Assembly (NCBI GenBank): GCA_030637775.1
Contig: DAOWFY010000033.1
Location: forward strand, 1 to 15,958
DNA length: 15,958 bases
Reading direction: 5' to 3'
Source of the DNA: DAOVGU01 sp030637775 [NCBI: bacterium]
GTDB lineage: Bacteria; Ratteibacteria; UBA8468
Part shown: in pieces, positions 7,721 through 15,630 of the stretch
How the letters are laid out: each line of letters opens with the position of its first letter
Numbering within the stretch: position 1 is the first letter of the stretch
Program-made: the position numbers and the translations under genes
Notes under the pieces: model-generated
The model's input: the letters and a program-made list of their open reading frames with translations, nothing else
Told to the model about the DNA's origin: nothing
Database searches by the model: none

Positions 7721-7776
7721 GTAGGGGCGACATTTATGACGCCCGTTGTTTCGGGTTCGATGAATCGAACCCCTAC
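7721..7776. repeat. RAYT-associated palindromic repeat, family A (left copy)
   Basis: The element starts GTAGGGGCG and ends CCCCTAC. It contains two hairpins facing each other: GGGCG-A-CAT, loop TT, ATG-A-CGCCC, and then GGGTTCGA, loop TGAA, TCGAACCC, with eight spacer bases between. The outer GTAG and CTAC can also pair. It lies between the RAYT stop and the lepB start, and it shares its hairpin half-unit with the copies at 8222-8282 and 10318-10367. Confidence 0.85.
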
Positions 7777-7784
7777 ACATACAT

Positions 7785-8213
7785 CTACATTTTATAGAAT
7801 TCTTCAAATTTTATCTTTAAAACATCCGGGTTATTCTGAATATATTCTCTGATTTTTGCTAAAGCATTTTCATTTCTTATTATATGTTCATAATAATTCC
7901 TCTGCCAAAAATTCTTTGCCTTTACCTCTTTTGTAACCAAGGATTTGTATGTTCGCACCACTTCGCCCAAACTTACTCTACATTTCTCAAATGTGAAAAT
8001 TGCATGAATATGGGTAGACATCAATACAAAATAATCTATCTTTAAACCAGAAAACCTTTTGGGTAAACACTGCAATATTTCCTCTGCTTGCTTTTTATAT
8101 TTTTCTAAATTAGGTTGAAAATTGGAACAACATATTGTAACAAAGTAGTATCCATCTTGCTCATAATCATAGTGTTTTAATCTAATATTTTTGCGAACAG
8201 CAAGATTTTGCAT
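7785..8213 (-). CDS. REP-associated tyrosine transposase (short Y1/HUH type)
   Basis: Y1 transposases of the IS200 superfamily cut and rejoin single-stranded DNA. RAYT members act on REP palindromes. From ATG 8211-8213 the protein has 142 residues and shows RKNIRLKHYDYEQDGYYFVTIC at the start, the metal-binding HUH triad as H68-I69-H70, and the probable nucleophile Y108 in NYYEHIIRNE, followed by REYIQNNP. All key residues are present, so it may be active. The frame can be extended eight codons to a TTG at 8237, but those codons lie in the palindrome and relatives start near RKNIR, so I prefer the ATG. It is flanked by family A hairpins on both sides and sits between lepA and lepB. It is shorter than many RAYTs (about 150-180) in the loop before the HUH motif. 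Confidence 0.92.
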   Translation of the reverse strand: MQNLAVRKNIRLKHYDYEQDGYYFVTICCSNFQPNLEKYKKQAEEILQCLPKRFSGLKIDYFVLMSTHIHAIFTFEKCRVSLGEVVRTYKSLVTKEVKAKNFWQRNYYEHIIRNENALAKIREYIQNNPDVLKIKFEEFYKM

Positions 8214-8221
8214 TCTTTTTC

Positions 8222-8282
8222 GGGCTTGATAAATCAAACCCCTACATATACACCTTTCGGGTCGGATAAATCCGACCCCTAC
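8222..8282. repeat. RAYT-associated palindromic repeats, family A (right pair)
   Basis: Two hairpins lie in the same orientation: GGGCTTGA, loop TAAA, TCAAACCC, then CTAC at 8242-8245; and GGGTCGGA, loop TAAA, TCCGACCC, then CTAC at 8279-8282. Thirteen bases separate them. The first touches the RAYT N-terminal region and the second ends six bases from the lepA stop. The spacing and loops match the left copy, so this forms the other flank of the RAYT unit. Confidence 0.85.
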
Positions 8283-8288
8283 AAATAA

Positions 8289-10064
8289 TCACGTTTTCAA
8301 TACGGCCATGAAGGCCTCTTGAGGGATTTTCACCACACCGATGCTTTTCATTCTTTGTTTGCCGATTTTTTGCTTTTCCCAGAGCTTCCTCTTTCTGGTG
8401 ATATCCCCCCCATAACATTTCCCCGTAACAAATTTCTTCGAAGCTGTAATCGCCTCGCGGGCAATAATCCTATTATTAATGGCAACCTGAATCACAATCT
8501 GAAAGAGCTGCCGTGGTATTACCTCCTTTAACTTCTTTAAAATGGCGATTGCTCTTTGCCGGCCATTTTCCCGAGGGACAATTACCGAAAGGGCATCAAC
8601 GAGTTTTCCATTGATAAGAATATCCAATCTTACCAGGTCAGATTTTCTGTAACCGACGAAGGAATAGTCCAGGGAGCCAAATCCATGGGTAACCGTTTTC
8701 AAGCGGTCGTAGAAATCAAGAAGGATTTCTGAAAATGGTATCTCAAAAGTAAGCAAAATTGTATCCTGAGAAAGATAGGAAAGTGATTTTTGCGTTCCCC
8801 GACGGTTTAAACATAGCTGAATAAGATCTCCAATATTGCTAGACGGAGCAATAATAAACAGGGAAAGGAAGGGTTCCTGGATCTCTTTAATATCGGAAAC
8901 GGGAGGAAGGCTGGCGGGATCCTTTATCTTGATTATTTCGCCGTCCTTCTTCTTTACCCTTAAGGTCACATAAGGGGTTGTTCTTACCAAAGAAAGGCTG
9001 TATTCCCTCTCCAACCTTTCCTGAATGATCTCCATATGGAAAAGACCGGAAAAACCGCAGCGGAAACCGGCACCAAGAGATTGAGAGACTTCCGGCTCAT
9101 AGGTAAAGGAGGAATCATTGAGGGAGAGTTTGAGTAAACTTTCTCGCAAACCTTCATAATCCTGGTCATCGGCCGGGTAGAAACTACTGTAGACAAAAGT
9201 TTTCCTCTTCTCGAATGGGGCCAGAGGAACTTCTGAGCCATTTTCAGCCGTTGTGATTGTATCGCCCACCGAAATCCTTCTCAAATCTTTAATATTTACT
9301 GAGAGATAACCTACCTCTCCGGAAGAAAGCCTATCTACTTTCTCTAATTTTGGGGTGAAGATGCCCACCTCCTTCACTTCGCCAACTAAATTTCTTTCAA
9401 TAAATTTGATCGGTGTTCCTTGAACTATTTGGCCATCCTTTACCCGAATATAAAGGTCTACTCCCATATAGGGATTATAATGGGCATCAAAGATAAGGGC
9501 ACGAAAGGGAGACTCTTCTCCTTCGGGAGGAGGAATCCTCTCAATAATGGCCTGGAGAACTTCCTTTATCCCAATCCCTTCTTTAGCTGAAGCAAGAATA
9601 ATTTCCTCCTCGGCTACCTTAAGAAGATTTGTGAACTGTAGCTTCGTTCTTTCAATCTGGGAGGTGGAGAGGTCGATCTTGTTGATGACCGGGATGATTG
9701 AAAGGCCCAGCTTCTGAGCAAACCTCAAATTGGTTATCGTCTGGGCCTGAACTCCCTGGGAGGCATCAATCAAAAGAAGAGCCCCCTCACTGGCAGTTAA
9801 ACCCTTGGCTACCTCAGAGGAGAAGTCAATGTGGCCCGGGGTATCAAGAAGATTAAGGATATAGTCTTGATAGAGAATTCTTACCGGATGGCTCTTGATG
9901 GTAACCCCATGCTCTCGCTCCAAATCCATGCTGTCTAAAATCTGATCCCGAAACTTCCTCTCACGAATGGTATGAGTAAACTGTAAGATGCGATCAGCCA
10001 GAGTGGACTTTCCATGATCAATATGGGCGATGATGGAAAAATTCCGAATATTTAGTTTCTCCAT
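8289..10064 (-). CDS. lepA: Elongation factor 4 (back-translocating GTPase LepA)
   Basis: LepA is a ribosome-associated GTPase that acts on stalled or mistranslocated ribosomes and in 30S biogenesis. From ATG 10062-10064 it has 591 residues, normal for the family. The N-terminus MEKLNIRNFSIIAHIDHGKS includes the G1 loop, then come LLDTPGHIDF (G3) and NKIDL (G4). The C-terminal LepA-specific domain ends YGGDITRKRKLWEKQ, then GKQRMKSIG and IPQEAF, diagnostic of LepA and absent from EF-G. A TTG 20 codons upstream extends the frame, but the family starts at MEKLN-like sequence, so I chose the internal ATG. This start lies inside the 3' end of tsaB (47-bp overlap) without an obvious ribosome site, suggesting coupling to tsaB translation. 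Confidence 0.96.
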   Translation of the reverse strand: MEKLNIRNFSIIAHIDHGKSTLADRILQFTHTIRERKFRDQILDSMDLEREHGVTIKSHPVRILYQDYILNLLDTPGHIDFSSEVAKGLTASEGALLLIDASQGVQAQTITNLRFAQKLGLSIIPVINKIDLSTSQIERTKLQFTNLLKVAEEEIILASAKEGIGIKEVLQAIIERIPPPEGEESPFRALIFDAHYNPYMGVDLYIRVKDGQIVQGTPIKFIERNLVGEVKEVGIFTPKLEKVDRLSSGEVGYLSVNIKDLRRISVGDTITTAENGSEVPLAPFEKRKTFVYSSFYPADDQDYEGLRESLLKLSLNDSSFTYEPEVSQSLGAGFRCGFSGLFHMEIIQERLEREYSLSLVRTTPYVTLRVKKKDGEIIKIKDPASLPPVSDIKEIQEPFLSLFIIAPSSNIGDLIQLCLNRRGTQKSLSYLSQDTILLTFEIPFSEILLDFYDRLKTVTHGFGSLDYSFVGYRKSDLVRLDILINGKLVDALSVIVPRENGRQRAIAILKKLKEVIPRQLFQIVIQVAINNRIIAREAITASKKFVTGKCYGGDITRKRKLWEKQKIGKQRMKSIGVVKIPQEAFMAVLKT

Positions 10065-10740
10065 AGAAAGGTTTGAGATTCTTGAGTTTAAAATCTCCTT
10101 TTCTTTGAAATTGGCGATAGCCAACCTTGGCTAAGTAACTTGCCTTTGGCAGCCAGAGATCTTCTCGAGCAAAAGAGGCAAGCTTTCCCAACCTTTCCTT
10201 AATCTTTTTTTTATAAGTAAAGAGTCCCTCCCCGATAAAAAGGGTTGGTCTCTTTATCTCTTCAATCAAATTCTTCAGGGAAACTTTCTTAATCCAGGTG
10301 TATGAGGATTTCCTTCTGTAGGGGCTTGATTCATCAAGCCCGCGGGTTCGATAAATCGAACCCCTACTGTAAAATGCCCGATAAATAAACTCCTTTTCCG
10401 CTTTAATCAGGATGCAGATTGAATCAGAACCTCCAACAGCTTCTGCCAATGTATCGAAGCTATAAACTCCTATTACCTTTTTTCTTAGCGCCGTTGCAAA
10501 CCCCTTGATTAAGGTGATACCAAGCCTTATTCCTGTCCAGGAGCCCGGGCCCAAAGAGGTGACAAAAAGGTTAATCTCCTTCAAAGAAATTTTATTTCTT
10601 TTTAAAAAATTATCAAGGTGGATAAAGATTTCTTTAGAGGCGTCCTCTGGCTGAAAGCCAGTTTCATCCAGAACTTTTTCATTTTCTAAGAGAGCAAGAC
10701 TGTTCATTTTAGTCGTTGTTTCAACCCCCAATATTTTCAT
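10018..10740 (-). CDS. tsaB: tRNA threonylcarbamoyladenosine biosynthesis protein TsaB, with a repeat-encoded insert
   Basis: TsaB pairs with TsaD and TsaE to add threonylcarbamoyl to A37 of ANN-decoding tRNAs. The start is ATG 10738-10740 (MKILGVETTTKMNSLALLE), where the family begins; a longer frame upstream has no support. The core motif LGPGSWTGIRLGI is at 63-75. The protein has 240 residues. Residues 125-141 are encoded by a family A palindrome inserted in frame. Removing those 17 residues joins Y124 directly to RRK, giving the common TsaB pattern at this point and a length of 223. The inserted loop lies just after a beta-strand, probably at the surface, so function could persist. The gene overlaps the upstream GT2 gene by 20 bp and the downstream lepA by 47 bp. 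Confidence 0.9.
   Translation of the reverse strand: MKILGVETTTKMNSLALLENEKVLDETGFQPEDASKEIFIHLDNFLKRNKISLKEINLFVTSLGPGSWTGIRLGITLIKGFATALRKKVIGVYSFDTLAEAVGGSDSICILIKAEKEFIYRAFYSRGSIYRTRGLDESSPYRRKSSYTWIKKVSLKNLIEEIKRPTLFIGEGLFTYKKKIKERLGKLASFAREDLWLPKASYLAKVGYRQFQRKGDFKLKNLKPFYGETKYSEFFHHRPY
10318..10367. repeat. RAYT-associated palindromic repeat, family A, inside tsaB
   Basis: The 50-base element runs GTAG, hairpin GGGCTTGA-TTCA-TCAAGCCC, GC, hairpin GGGTTCGA-TAAA-TCGAACCC, CTAC. The second hairpin is identical in stem to one arm of the left RAYT flank. CTGTA occurs at 10316-10320 and again at 10367-10371, exactly 51 bases apart. Loss of one repeat and the element would leave a continuous tsaB frame. 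This is the clearest evidence that the element moved. Confidence 0.92.
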
Positions 10741-11458
10741 AGAGACCACGCCAATCATTAAACCTGATCCTGCAGAGGTCAAGAAACATCAAGAAAGAGT
10801 GCTTTATTGGACCGACCTTCGATGCCGGGGAATTTAGCCAGCGGACAGGCACCTCCTTCACTCTCTTCTTAAATCTCCTTGCTAAATAAAGAATCTCTAC
10901 ATCGAAACAAAAACCGGAAAGTCGTTGTTGGCTAAAGAGGAAATTGGCCGTTTTCTTCTCAAAACATTTAAAGCCGCACTGGGTATCCACAAAACCTCTC
11001 ACCACAAAAATCTTCACCAAAAGATTGAAGAGTCTTCCCATTAATCTGCGAAAAAATGGCTGCGGGATAGGAACTTCAGAGTTTGGTAAGCGCCTTGAGC
11101 CAAAGACAAGATGGTAGCCTTTCTTCAACCAAAAAAGAAGTTTCTCCAGCTCCTCAATGGGTGTGGAGAGGTCAGCATCGGAAAAAAGGATAAAACTTCC
11201 CCCTGCAGAGAGAATCCCTTGCCTGATGCTATAACCCTTCCCTCTTCTCTCCCTATTTTTCAGGAGAATAATCTTCTCGCCAAAATTTTCTATGATCTTT
11301 GCCGTTTGATCGGAGCTTGCATCATCGACAACAATAATCTCATAGGAATAGTCCTGACGAGAAAGGTAAGAGATGATTTTTTTCAGAGTCTCTCCGATCC
11401 TCCTCTCCTCATTATAAGCGGGAATGACCACTGAAATGAAGGGGTCAGGTCTCAACAT
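10721..11458 (-). CDS. Family 2 glycosyltransferase (dolichyl-phosphate glucosyl/mannosyltransferase-like)
   Basis: The 245-residue GT-A enzyme probably moves a sugar from a nucleotide donor to polyprenyl phosphate at the inner membrane. Motifs are SVVIPAYNEERRIGETL at 9-25, IIVVDDASSDQT at 41-52, RGKGYSIRQGI, the metal-binding DADLSTP near 94-100, GSRRLPNS, and DTQCGFKCF near 160. This pattern matches DPM/ALG5-type GT2 proteins; there is no C-terminal membrane segment. The start is unusual: the ATG and first six codons (MLRPDP) are the inverted repeat of the neighbouring transposon, and native similarity starts at FISVVIPAYNEE. No other start or ribosome site is seen. It overlaps the transposase end by 14 bp and tsaB by 20 bp. 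Together with the GT39 gene it may serve lipid-linked sugar transfer (inference). Confidence 0.88.
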   Translation of the reverse strand: MLRPDPFISVVIPAYNEERRIGETLKKIISYLSRQDYSYEIIVVDDASSDQTAKIIENFGEKIILLKNRERRGKGYSIRQGILSAGGSFILFSDADLSTPIEELEKLLFWLKKGYHLVFGSRRLPNSEVPIPQPFFRRLMGRLFNLLVKIFVVRGFVDTQCGFKCFEKKTANFLFSQQRLSGFCFDVEILYLARRFKKRVKEVPVRWLNSPASKVGPIKHSFLMFLDLCRIRFNDWRGLYENIGG

Positions 11459-11464
11459 TTGACA
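11441..11464. repeat. Family B terminal inverted repeat, left
   Basis: This 24-bp terminus is an exact reverse complement of 12601-12624 and is also found twice in the element at 15547-15622. It encodes the transposase end (SNVET and its stop, 11445-11447) in one frame and the GT2 start MLRPDP in another. Confidence 0.92.
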
Positions 11465-12383
11465 TTTTTTCTATCTTAGTTATTAATAAGTCCAATCTTT
11501 TGTCCCCTTTCCTCTGCTTCTCTAATCGATGAGAAATTTGACTCACACCTGCATCGGATATTCCATAATATTGTCCTATTTCAGAAAGTTTTCTCTCGGT
11601 ATATTTATGGATAAGATAAATGGCTATTTTTCTTGCCAACTTCTCCTCATCAATATGTTGTTTCACTATCTGGCCTATTTCTTCTGGGGTTCTCGTAACT
11701 TTCAACTGCTTTATTTGTGGAATTTCTTTATCCGCCTTATTCTTTAAGAATTTATCTCTTACCCATCCAACAAAATCAGAATCGCCGAGAATAAAACCCC
11801 TTTTGATATCCTCTCTGATAATACCAATCTCTTTTCCAATTGCCTCTTTAACAAATTTTTCATATAGGGCTTGAGATTTTTTCCTGTCTTTACTGAAGAT
11901 GGACAAAATAAATTCTGTAGTTAAAAAATCAGGGGCCTTTTTATCGGAAATAAAGTATTGATAACTGGACCAAGGATAATCTTGCGGGTCTTTTCTTATA
12001 TTTGCCCTTACTGGATTCAGGTGAATATATCTCGATAAAGAATGGAGGTATTGATCCGCTTGAACCAATATAGACTTATATCTTCCTTGGAATAAATGGC
12101 CTATCCTCTTGTATCTTGCATTGAAGTAAGCGGTATAACTGGAATTTAAGTTATGCATCATTTTGATAAGATTTGGCTTCTGAGTCTCCAAAAGAAGATG
12201 GTAATGGTTATTCATAAGGCAGTAAGCATGAATCTTAATATGATAACGAAGAGCAAGGCCTTTAAGATAGTTGAGAAATTTTTCCCGGTCAAAATCACTG
12301 GCAAAGATTTTTCCCTCTTCATTGCCGCGAGAAATAATATGATAAAAGGCCCCAGTATATTCTATTCTTAAAGGCCTAGCCAT
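11445..12383 (-). CDS. REP-associated Y1 transposase with C-terminal helix-turn-helix domain
   Basis: The 312-residue protein starts MARPLRIEYTGAFYHIISRGN, the classic beginning of long RAYT-type transposases. The HUH triad is H60-Y61-H62 in MNNHYHLLLE, and the nucleophile is Y119 in SRYIHLNPVRANI, so the nuclease site is intact. Residues about 215-300 form a helical C-terminal part with ERKLSEIGQYYGISDAGVSQI, a helix-turn-helix like that of DnaA domain IV, likely used for sequence-specific DNA binding. AGGAAG lies in front of the ATG. It is a different subgroup from the short RAYT at 7785, and each is paired with its own repeat family. The last codons and stop lie in the left inverted repeat of its own element. 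Confidence 0.93.
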   Translation of the reverse strand: MARPLRIEYTGAFYHIISRGNEEGKIFASDFDREKFLNYLKGLALRYHIKIHAYCLMNNHYHLLLETQKPNLIKMMHNLNSSYTAYFNARYKRIGHLFQGRYKSILVQADQYLHSLSRYIHLNPVRANIRKDPQDYPWSSYQYFISDKKAPDFLTTEFILSIFSKDRKKSQALYEKFVKEAIGKEIGIIREDIKRGFILGDSDFVGWVRDKFLKNKADKEIPQIKQLKVTRTPEEIGQIVKQHIDEEKLARKIAIYLIHKYTERKLSEIGQYYGISDAGVSQISHRLEKQRKGDKRLDLLITKIEKMSNVET

Positions 12384-12549: not shown

Positions 12550-14169
12550 TTAGTGTCGCAATTCTCTACTAAAGTTAGTATATAGTCTGGTAGCAGAATT
12601 TGTCAAATGTTGAGACCTGACCCCCATTAGGAAAAGAGTCATCTCCCCTTTGTTCTCAGAAAGACCTTCCTTTTTAGCGAGAAGAACAAAGTCAATCTTA
12701 TCTTTAATCTCCTCGTAATCCTTTTTTCTGATGAAGCAGAAGATTTTTTCTCCTCTTTTTGCGCCTTCTTCTAATTCGGAAAGAGAATCAACCCTTTTAA
12801 CAAAATGCTTACTATAGAAGACCATACTCGGCTCAAAGTAGCGAAAGGAGAAGACTAAATCGGAGGGGCCGGCTCTTTTCTCTACCAACTTTGCCAAAGG
12901 TGCAATGATTCTGAAGCTATTGACCTCGGGCACACTCTTCAGACTGAAGAAAAGAGCAAAGCAGAGCATCGTAATAACAAGAGAGGAAAAAATTCTCTTT
13001 ACCTTAAGATGGGAAAGCGCAGCAAAAAGGGTGCCGGCAACTAAGATAGCGAAGTTGATAACCAAGCTCTTTGTGGCAAAGTTAGGCTTTATCCAGAATA
13101 GGGAGATGGGCATCAAAATAAGGAGGATGCTTATTCCAAGGAGAATAAAAAGAGAAGGTTTTAAAAATGTTCTTGCCTCCTTTGCCCAAAATTTAGCAAT
13201 CAGGATCGAGGAAGGAGGAAAAAGGGGAAGGATATAATGAGGAAGTTTTGTCTTGGAAAGAGAGAAGAAAAGAAAAACCACTACAATCCAGATAACTAAA
13301 AAGAGGTATTTTTGATTTTTCCTTTTTAACTCTCTTCGCTCCGACCAGAGGGCACCCGGCAAAAAGACCGACCAGGGGAAAAGACCAAAGATCAATATCG
13401 GAAGATAGTAATAAAAAGGACCATAATGGCCCTGCATTGGATGAATGAATCTATAAAGATGTTGACGCAGAATAAACTCGGAGAAGAATTTACCGCCAGA
13501 GCTTTTCGCAATTATCAGATACCAGGGGGAGACGATGAGAAGGAAAATAACAAATCCTAAAGGTAGATGCATTTTTAGTTGTTTTAATTCCTTATTAAAA
13601 AAAAGAAAAAGAAGAACAATCGCCGCGGGAAGAAGAAACCCAATCGGTCCTTTGGTAAGAACAGCCAGCCCAAGAAGAGCATAAGCAAAGGAATAGCAAT
13701 ATCTTTTTTCTCTTCCCAAGAAGAAAAGGAGTAAGGAACCGGTAAAGAAAAAAAGCAGATAGGTATCTGTAATTGCTGCCTTGCAGATAACCAGAAAGAA
13801 GAGGCTTGTTGAGAGGATGAGGGAGGAGAAAATACCGGTTTTTCTGTCAAATAAGGTACGGCCAAGGAAAAATGTCAATAATACCGTGCCTATTCCGAAG
13901 AGCACTGAGGGAAACCTTGCAGCAAATTCTCCTACTCCAAATAAACGAAAAGAGCCGACCATCATCCAGTAAGCAAATGGAGGTTTCTCTAAGAAGTCAG
14001 TTCCATTGAAAGAGGGAATAGCATAATTCTCAGTAATAAGCATCTCCCTGGCTGTCTCTGCATAGAAGGTCTCATCCCGATCCCAAAGAAAACTTTTCGA
14101 CAGACCCGGAAGGAGCAAAAGAGCAACAAAAAGGATTAAAAAAAGAACCAAAAGCCAATTTTTATTCAT
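12550..14169 (-). CDS. Membrane glycosyltransferase, GT39/ArnT (PMT_2) family
   Basis: The 539-residue polytopic protein would use a polyprenyl-phosphate sugar as donor and transfer it to a lipid or protein on the outer face of the inner membrane. The first periplasmic loop has the family signature WDRDETFYAETAREM at 29-43, with the catalytic acidic pair, then GTDFLEKPPFAYW. About eleven hydrophobic segments follow, up to residue 410. A soluble tail of about 100 residues comes next. The last 24 residues (GVRSQHL to the stop at 12550) are encoded by the right inverted repeat and interior of the family B transposon, so the native end has been replaced. The ATG lies directly beside a second palindromic repeat and has no clear ribosome site. 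Substrate cannot be named; it may use the product of the adjacent GT2. Confidence 0.87.
   Translation of the reverse strand: MNKNWLLVLFLILFVALLLLPGLSKSFLWDRDETFYAETAREMLITENYAIPSFNGTDFLEKPPFAYWMMVGSFRLFGVGEFAARFPSVLFGIGTVLLTFFLGRTLFDRKTGIFSSLILSTSLFFLVICKAAITDTYLLFFFTGSLLLFFLGREKRYCYSFAYALLGLAVLTKGPIGFLLPAAIVLLFLFFNKELKQLKMHLPLGFVIFLLIVSPWYLIIAKSSGGKFFSEFILRQHLYRFIHPMQGHYGPFYYYLPILIFGLFPWSVFLPGALWSERRELKRKNQKYLFLVIWIVVVFLFFSLSKTKLPHYILPLFPPSSILIAKFWAKEARTFLKPSLFILLGISILLILMPISLFWIKPNFATKSLVINFAILVAGTLFAALSHLKVKRIFSSLVITMLCFALFFSLKSVPEVNSFRIIAPLAKLVEKRAGPSDLVFSFRYFEPSMVFYSKHFVKRVDSLSELEEGAKRGEKIFCFIRKKDYEEIKDKIDFVLLAKKEGLSENKGEMTLFLMGVRSQHLTNSATRLYTNFSRELRH
12601..12624. repeat. Family B terminal inverted repeat, right
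   Basis: This is the reverse complement of 11441-11464 over all 24 bases. It is read through as codons for VRSQHLT at the C-terminus of the GT39 protein. Confidence 0.92.
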
Positions 14170-15546: not shown

Positions 15547-15622
15547 GGGGTCAGGTCTCAACATTTGACAATTTGTCTAATGAGTTAACCAAGAATTTTG
15601 TCAAATGTTGAGACCTGACCCC
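15547..15622. mobile_element. Non-autonomous family B palindromic element (MITE-like)
   Basis: A 76-bp unit with perfect 25-bp inverted repeats at 15547-15571 and 15598-15622 and only 26 bp between them. The arms equal the ends of the transposon at 11441-12624, so that transposase could move it. TTTAT occurs directly before (15542-15546) and after (15623-15627), which may be a target duplication or chance in AT-rich DNA. It separates two co-oriented genes that would otherwise lie about 12 bp apart. Confidence 0.88.
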
Positions 15623-15630
15623 TTTATACT

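Follow-up and report, generated by a model that had tools for sequence, protein, structure and literature searches.

A REP-like palindromic doublet lying in frame within tsaB, and related copies inside other genes of two draft genomes

The tsaB locus and its palindromic doublet

The stretch of DNA analysed here (the window, 15,958 nucleotides) is contig C119 of a draft genome, G000, which comprises 1.40 Mb in 177 contigs and is 83.5% complete. Its minus strand carries tsaB, a gene that is essential in other bacteria, and a gene resembling RAYT transposases, both of them associated with palindromic repeats of one family. The features are as follows.

7749-7786, unstranded: single REP unit downstream of the RAYT-like gene (family match, fold)
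7785-8237, minus strand: RAYT-like Y1/HUH transposase gene with single REP units of the tsaB-doublet family at both flanks (NCBIfam NF047646, 64.7 bits, below the cutoff of 80)
8218-8292, unstranded: two neighbouring REP units upstream of the RAYT-like gene (family match, fold)
10018-10740, minus strand: tsaB (t6A biosynthesis), the host gene, 240 aa (TIGR03725, 110.9 bits, cutoff 69.3; Pfam TsaD)
10300-10317, minus strand: 3' flank AGAAGGAAATCCTCATAC, related to AGGAAATTCCTATAC, the tail that follows a number of further copies
10318-10367, minus strand: head-to-head REP doublet of 50 nt, two GTAG-tagged hairpins with TTCGAT/ATCGAA and CTTGAT/ATCAAG stems and a GC spacer
10318-10368, minus strand: in-frame segment coding for SRGSIYRTRGLDESSPY, TsaB residues 125-141, without a counterpart in the sister genus (G003)

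The doublet reads GTAGGGG...CCCGCGGG...CCCCTAC. The initial annotation had described a 50-base double hairpin of the same family as the repeats beside the RAYT, with the frame remaining open through it, and both statements are borne out: the doublet occupies 10318-10367, and the tsaB reading frame (10740 to 10018, minus strand) continues across it, placing SRGSIYRTRGLDESSPY between AFY and RRK. Folded as single-stranded DNA, the doublet forms two hairpins with stems of 8 bp and loops of 4 nt, closed by the outer ends (z −5.8; none of 200 shuffled sequences folded as well), while the corresponding RNA is predicted to form a single long hairpin of −30.3 kcal/mol (z −6.2; again 0 of 200). The flank AGAAGGAAATCCTCATAC is perhaps part of a longer element. 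CTGTA words occur at 10316 and 10367, and their spacing is indeed exactly 51 nt as annotated; their reading as a target duplication was not accepted, since the words overlap the terminal GTA of the element and the net length varies from gene to gene. An AlphaFold model of TsaB, built from two sequences, reached a mean pLDDT of 36 and was set aside.

A second draft genome, CSMAG_1143 (G001; 93% complete, 5% contamination), has the same arrangement at its tsaB locus (L001, contig C214), with 88% protein identity and an element differing from that of G000 at one of 50 bases. By contrast, the segment is absent from tsaB of the sister genus, which reads AFYQNGKTTQIKKVSL where the carriers read AFY-SRGSIYRTRGLDESSPY-RRKSSYTWIKKVSL. 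Measured against this empty gene, the carriers differ here by 18 residues, not exactly the annotated 17. Across the class, TsaB homologues are of variable length at the position of the element. Between the two carriers, tsaB has a dN/dS of 0.22, whether the insert is included or excluded, and a dS of 0.26; within the insert there is one synonymous difference and no non-synonymous one. Because two drafts diverged to this degree share the site, and given the dN/dS, decay of tsaB or an assembly error, which had been named as a possible refutation, is unlikely. The proposal that the element came into the gene and was tolerated there gains support from the same dN/dS, the sharing of the site by two species and its absence in the sister genus.

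The RAYT-like gene has flanking units of the same REP family in both G000 and CSMAG_1143, and we infer that an enzyme of this type mobilises the doublet. In CSMAG_1143, the doublets of the archease gene and of the M28-peptidase gene contain nested 39-nt hairpins that are almost the same, as expected if the doublet moves as a unit.

Elsewhere in the window, a second Y1 transposase (11448-12383) has a DnaA-type C-terminal domain and is flanked by a 24-29-nt repeat, TTTGTCAAATGTTGAGACCTGACCCC, at 11436-11473 and 12597-12624. A free inverted pair at 15547-15622 (repeat region 15547-15627) resembles a non-autonomous derivative of that transposase.

Copies within other genes

Searching with a 71-nt consensus at the DNA level (E up to 10) returned 26 matches in G000 and 48 in CSMAG_1143. 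We inspected 63 rows, made up of 61 of these 74 matches and two places found only by pattern, and merging them left about 60 sites (24 from G000, 36 from CSMAG_1143). A strict doublet pattern, which is nearly self-complementary, occurred 11 times forward and 10 times in reverse in G000, while the reversed control of the same pattern gave no occurrence in this 1.40-Mb genome. Among the 35 genomes searched from the phylum, four contained the strict doublet, namely G000, CSMAG_1143, G004 and G008, the last being from another family.

On ORF and Pfam evidence, 28 of the about 60 sites (13 in G000 and 15 in CSMAG_1143) lie in frame within genes; these were chosen as open spanning ORFs, so the lack of stops at them is not independent evidence. 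Sites at gene ends, such as a pfkB-like C-terminus and several N-termini, were left out of the count. The initial annotation understated the extent of such in-frame copies: across the two genomes, 23 different host genes carry one. Five genes have the element in both (tsaB, uvrC, archease, an IF-2B-family gene and a GFO/IDH oxidoreductase). Eight have it in G000 only (folC, ileS, polA, uvrA, apbE, a semialdehyde-dehydrogenase gene, an AIR-synthase-type gene and a DegT aminotransferase). The remainder are from CSMAG_1143: genes for a Wzy ligase, a histidine kinase, an SLT/TPR lytic transglycosylase and an M28 peptidase fusion, together with lpxB, a lipoyl-ligase gene, rpoN, lnt, alaS and a DUF3786 gene. 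Only half-elements are present in five of the 23 (semialdehyde dehydrogenase, AIR synthase, DegT, DUF3786 and alaS).

Domain matches (Pfam or NCBIfam) extend across the element or enclose it in 19 of the 23 genes, and for ileS the same holds of an alignment to a PDB entry; support from Pfam is confined to one side in three cases (Wzy ligase, histidine kinase, GFO/IDH oxidoreductase). Among the remaining copies, which lie between or beside other ORFs, ORF inspection revealed no clearly broken gene. The five genes carrying the element in both genomes have dN/dS values of 0.15-0.22. The sister genus has an in-frame copy of its own, SGRIYPTRGLDKSSPYN, in a 477-aa ORF (L190:459-1889, contig C234) with an enolase C-terminal-like domain downstream of the copy, and the in-gene trait therefore extends past one genus.

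At orthologous sites, the hairpins appear to have been remodelled in place. In uvrC, G000 has TCGGATTCATCCGA and CSMAG_1143 has TTCGAGTTATCGAA; both stem arms have changed together, so that the hairpin is kept while the amino acids are altered from RIHPT to SSYRT. In the first loop of the archease copy, one genome has TTC where the other has GAA, which looks like an inversion, and the GFO/IDH copies of the two genomes have different modules as their second half. Conversion between copies, re-insertion or compensatory mutation could each account for such changes.

Two rpoN genes are present in CSMAG_1143 (contigs C86 and C69); they share 78% identity, only one of them carries the element, and they are either paralogues or the product of a mixed bin. 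Other repeat-like segments are also found in frame, in the pfkB-like gene (L034), in uvrC (L117), polA (L173) and lnt (L090) of CSMAG_1143, and in polA of G000 (L061). Some are of CCTCCCC...GGGAGG type and code for SP..SRGEE-like peptides, while one in polA is of CAGAATGAC... type; their presence suggests that the lineage tolerates several repeat classes inside proteins.

Frame preference and homologues without the element

Thirteen of the 20 perfect doublets in G000 and CSMAG_1143 have a spanning ORF, or 11 of 18 after orthologues are merged. Random insertions made in silico had a spanning ORF in 9% of cases for a 50-nt insert, 39% for 51 nt and 33% for 66 nt. Against a mixed-length null of about 19%, the in-gene excess is clear (P = 0.0001); against the 51-nt null it is marginal (P = 0.048 for 11/18). 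Faster decay of intergenic copies may have raised the in-gene share among perfect ones, and the figures include any such effect. In G008, which has 64 doublets, 11 of the 44 examined have a spanning ORF; five of these 11 ORFs have a Pfam domain, lying on both sides of the element in three. When both are scored by spanning ORF, the genus and G008 differ (P = 0.010).

The 44 doublets examined in G008 (L130-L169, L037) are built from 11 stem types and include no identical-stem pair, against 6.9 expected if stems paired at random (P = 0.0006), and perfect long palindromes seem to be avoided in this genome. The equivalent test of homotypic pairing in G000 and CSMAG_1143 was set aside, the doublets there being nearly all of one type and not independent.

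Three of the six frames of the consensus are free of stops. Classified by frame at the start of the match, the 23 genes use these three in the ratio 16:5:2 (chi-square P = 0.0008); only two have the element in the opposite orientation, against 21 with it on the coding strand (P = 0.013). In two of the five frame-0 cases, the lytic transglycosylase and lnt, one extra spacer base puts the second half back into the main frame. Mean hydropathy is −1.42 for the preferred reading, +0.65 for the second same-strand frame and −1.19 for the rare opposite frame; since the last of these is hydrophilic as well, the bias is not accounted for by peptide chemistry alone. The bias in orientation could result from strand-specific insertion of a single strand. 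As described in the accessible part of one report, TnpA-REP proteins bind the REP hairpin as folded single-stranded DNA in a strand-specific manner (PMC8266576).

Element-free homologues were found for all eight genes checked (tsaB, folC, uvrC, ileS, uvrA, rpoN, polA and lpxB). The uvrA genes of CSMAG_1143, G002, G003 and the class outgroup G033 each have five residues where G000 has 28, and ileS is without the element in both class outgroups (G005 and G033) and in a solved enzyme (PDB 8c9e). The element in uvrA, ileS and tsaB has the appearance of a clean addition. In rpoN, the second copy of CSMAG_1143 and G033 are element-free and the site is in a variable linker; polA likewise has a variable linker at this place, without the element in G002 and G033 and with a different insert nearby in CSMAG_1143.

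The other three genes have a different pattern. The lpxB gene of CSMAG_1143 (L071) has a net gain of only five residues over G000 and G003 (G033 is also element-free), and at least 12 native residues must be gone. The uvrC site (L059) is empty in G002, with six residues against 28, while both class outgroups have 22 native residues. In folC (L032), CSMAG_1143 has 13 residues and G003 has 18, against 32 in the carrier, whereas G033 and G005 have 34 each; two solved FolC enzymes align across the element segment with no clear gap. The same place in folC holds a half-element of another stem type in G002 (L106) and an AT-rich perfect hairpin, TTTAGAAATGAATTTCTAAA, in CSMAG_1143 (L105), and is either an old remodelled insertion or a hot spot. 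In lpxB, folC and uvrC, the element would thus partly replace native sequence of similar length found in some or all outgroups. Given these lengths, simple insertion does not fit every gene, and insertion may go with local sequence loss.

Origin of the in-gene copies and comparison with known repeats

Taken together, we consider it highly likely that the feature in tsaB is a GTAG-type REP doublet, a REPIN-like non-autonomous mobile element spread by a RAYT, and that mainly those landings that are in frame and free of stops survive. The similar-length native sequence in the folC and uvrC outgroups slightly lowers our confidence in this explanation. A RAYT-family HUH transposase would copy the doublet through a folded single strand and place copies widely, some landings in genes coming with the loss of adjoining native sequence. 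Gene-breaking landings would be lost by selection, and the survivors would be those with a net length that is a multiple of three, no stop, and a position in a tolerant loop or interdomain linker. Such copies would be translated as a peptide of about 17-23 residues, and the in-gene repeat probably adds a short stretch to the protein. Later inversion or swapping of hairpin modules would change the residues while the palindrome stays.

Alternatively, the inserts might remain untranslated, with ribosomes bypassing the hairpin or RNA processing removing it to yield a normal protein. Very stable hairpins are a kind of structure known from bypassing elements, and the tsaB doublet as RNA folds into one such hairpin (−30.3 kcal/mol). 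However, bypass needs no keeping of frame, so that out-of-frame or stop-bearing copies in genes should be common, and apart from the altered pfkB-like C-terminus none was seen by ORF inspection around the sites not counted as in-gene; we regard bypass as very unlikely. It is hardly credible that tsaB and the other carriers are pseudogenes in decay or artefacts of chimaeric assembly. Both drafts are fragmented (83.5% and 93% complete), and CSMAG_1143 has 5% contamination and two rpoN copies, but the tsaB site is common to two diverged genomes and the five shared genes have dN/dS values of 0.15-0.22.

The elements might also have been recruited, the peptide or the mRNA hairpin having a selected function, for example in repair genes as speculated by Di Nocera et al. 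The carriers here include uvrA, uvrC and polA, of which uvrA and polA are also hosts in species covered by the accessible part of that paper (PMC3733652). The tsaB insert has no non-synonymous and one synonymous difference between species, and the stem arms in uvrC changed jointly. On the other hand, the host genes are functionally unrelated and use different frames, relatives manage without the element in folC, uvrA and rpoN, and low divergence over 17 codons also fits gene conversion or chance, making recruitment unlikely. A further reading, possible but doubtful, is that the REP doublet is here largely a protein-coding mobile module, with three open frames and one main orientation, that can replace native loops and undergoes exchange or inversion of its halves in place. 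If so, maintenance of the palindrome at the DNA level keeps rewriting short stretches of core proteins. The two genomes provide a dense natural collection of mobile-element copies lying in frame in core proteins of an uncultured lineage, with element-free homologues for comparison. This makes testable how REPs survive in genes, which positions in essential proteins accept a fixed peptide, and whether repair genes are truly enriched in them as reported.

The doublet combines features of several known systems. As in the GTAG REP superfamily, both halves have a GTAG tag, the stems and loops (8 bp and 4 nt) fall within the ranges of 5-13 bp and 2-20 nt, and copies are dispersed (the 26 and 48 matches at E up to 10), the full doublets having their GTAG ends outside. 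Rickettsia palindromic elements are an older precedent for in-frame insertion into unrelated genes, of about 150 bp and with their own families, according to the accessible text of PMC10969869. The doublet shares with them that it is a palindrome in frame within many unrelated genes (23 here), and is set apart from them, as they are described there, by length, ends and lineage. With REPINs, in the part of PMC8049555 available, it shares two inverted REP units, a short spacer, a single-strand hairpin and the presence of a RAYT-like gene; unlike in REPINs, each half is itself a strong hairpin and many copies lie in ORFs.

The likeness to the GTAG REPs of Di Nocera et al. (2013, PMC3733652), as far as the accessible part of that paper describes them, extends to tagged hairpins, head-to-head dimers, in-frame segments, uvrA, polA and tRNA-synthetase hosts, and perhaps association with a RAYT. 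In that account, more than half of the intragenic GTAG and CGTC REPs are dimers or groups, coding for 20-30 residues, and several lie in uvrA, polA, recBCD and tRNA-related genes. The initial annotation had taken RAYT-linked repeats to be normally intergenic, and to this extent it needs qualifying, since intragenic ones were already published there. The REPs of that study are mostly intergenic, whereas in the present genomes genes contain 13 of the 20 perfect doublets and 28 of the about 60 sites; the same part of the paper contains no precedent for a genus with most of its perfect doublets in genes, nor the exchange of stems at an orthologous coding site that is seen here. The set of copies described here is a dense new example of in-gene REPs, a kind already known from a few other bacteria, and shows again that 'extragenic' is unsafe as a rule for these repeats.
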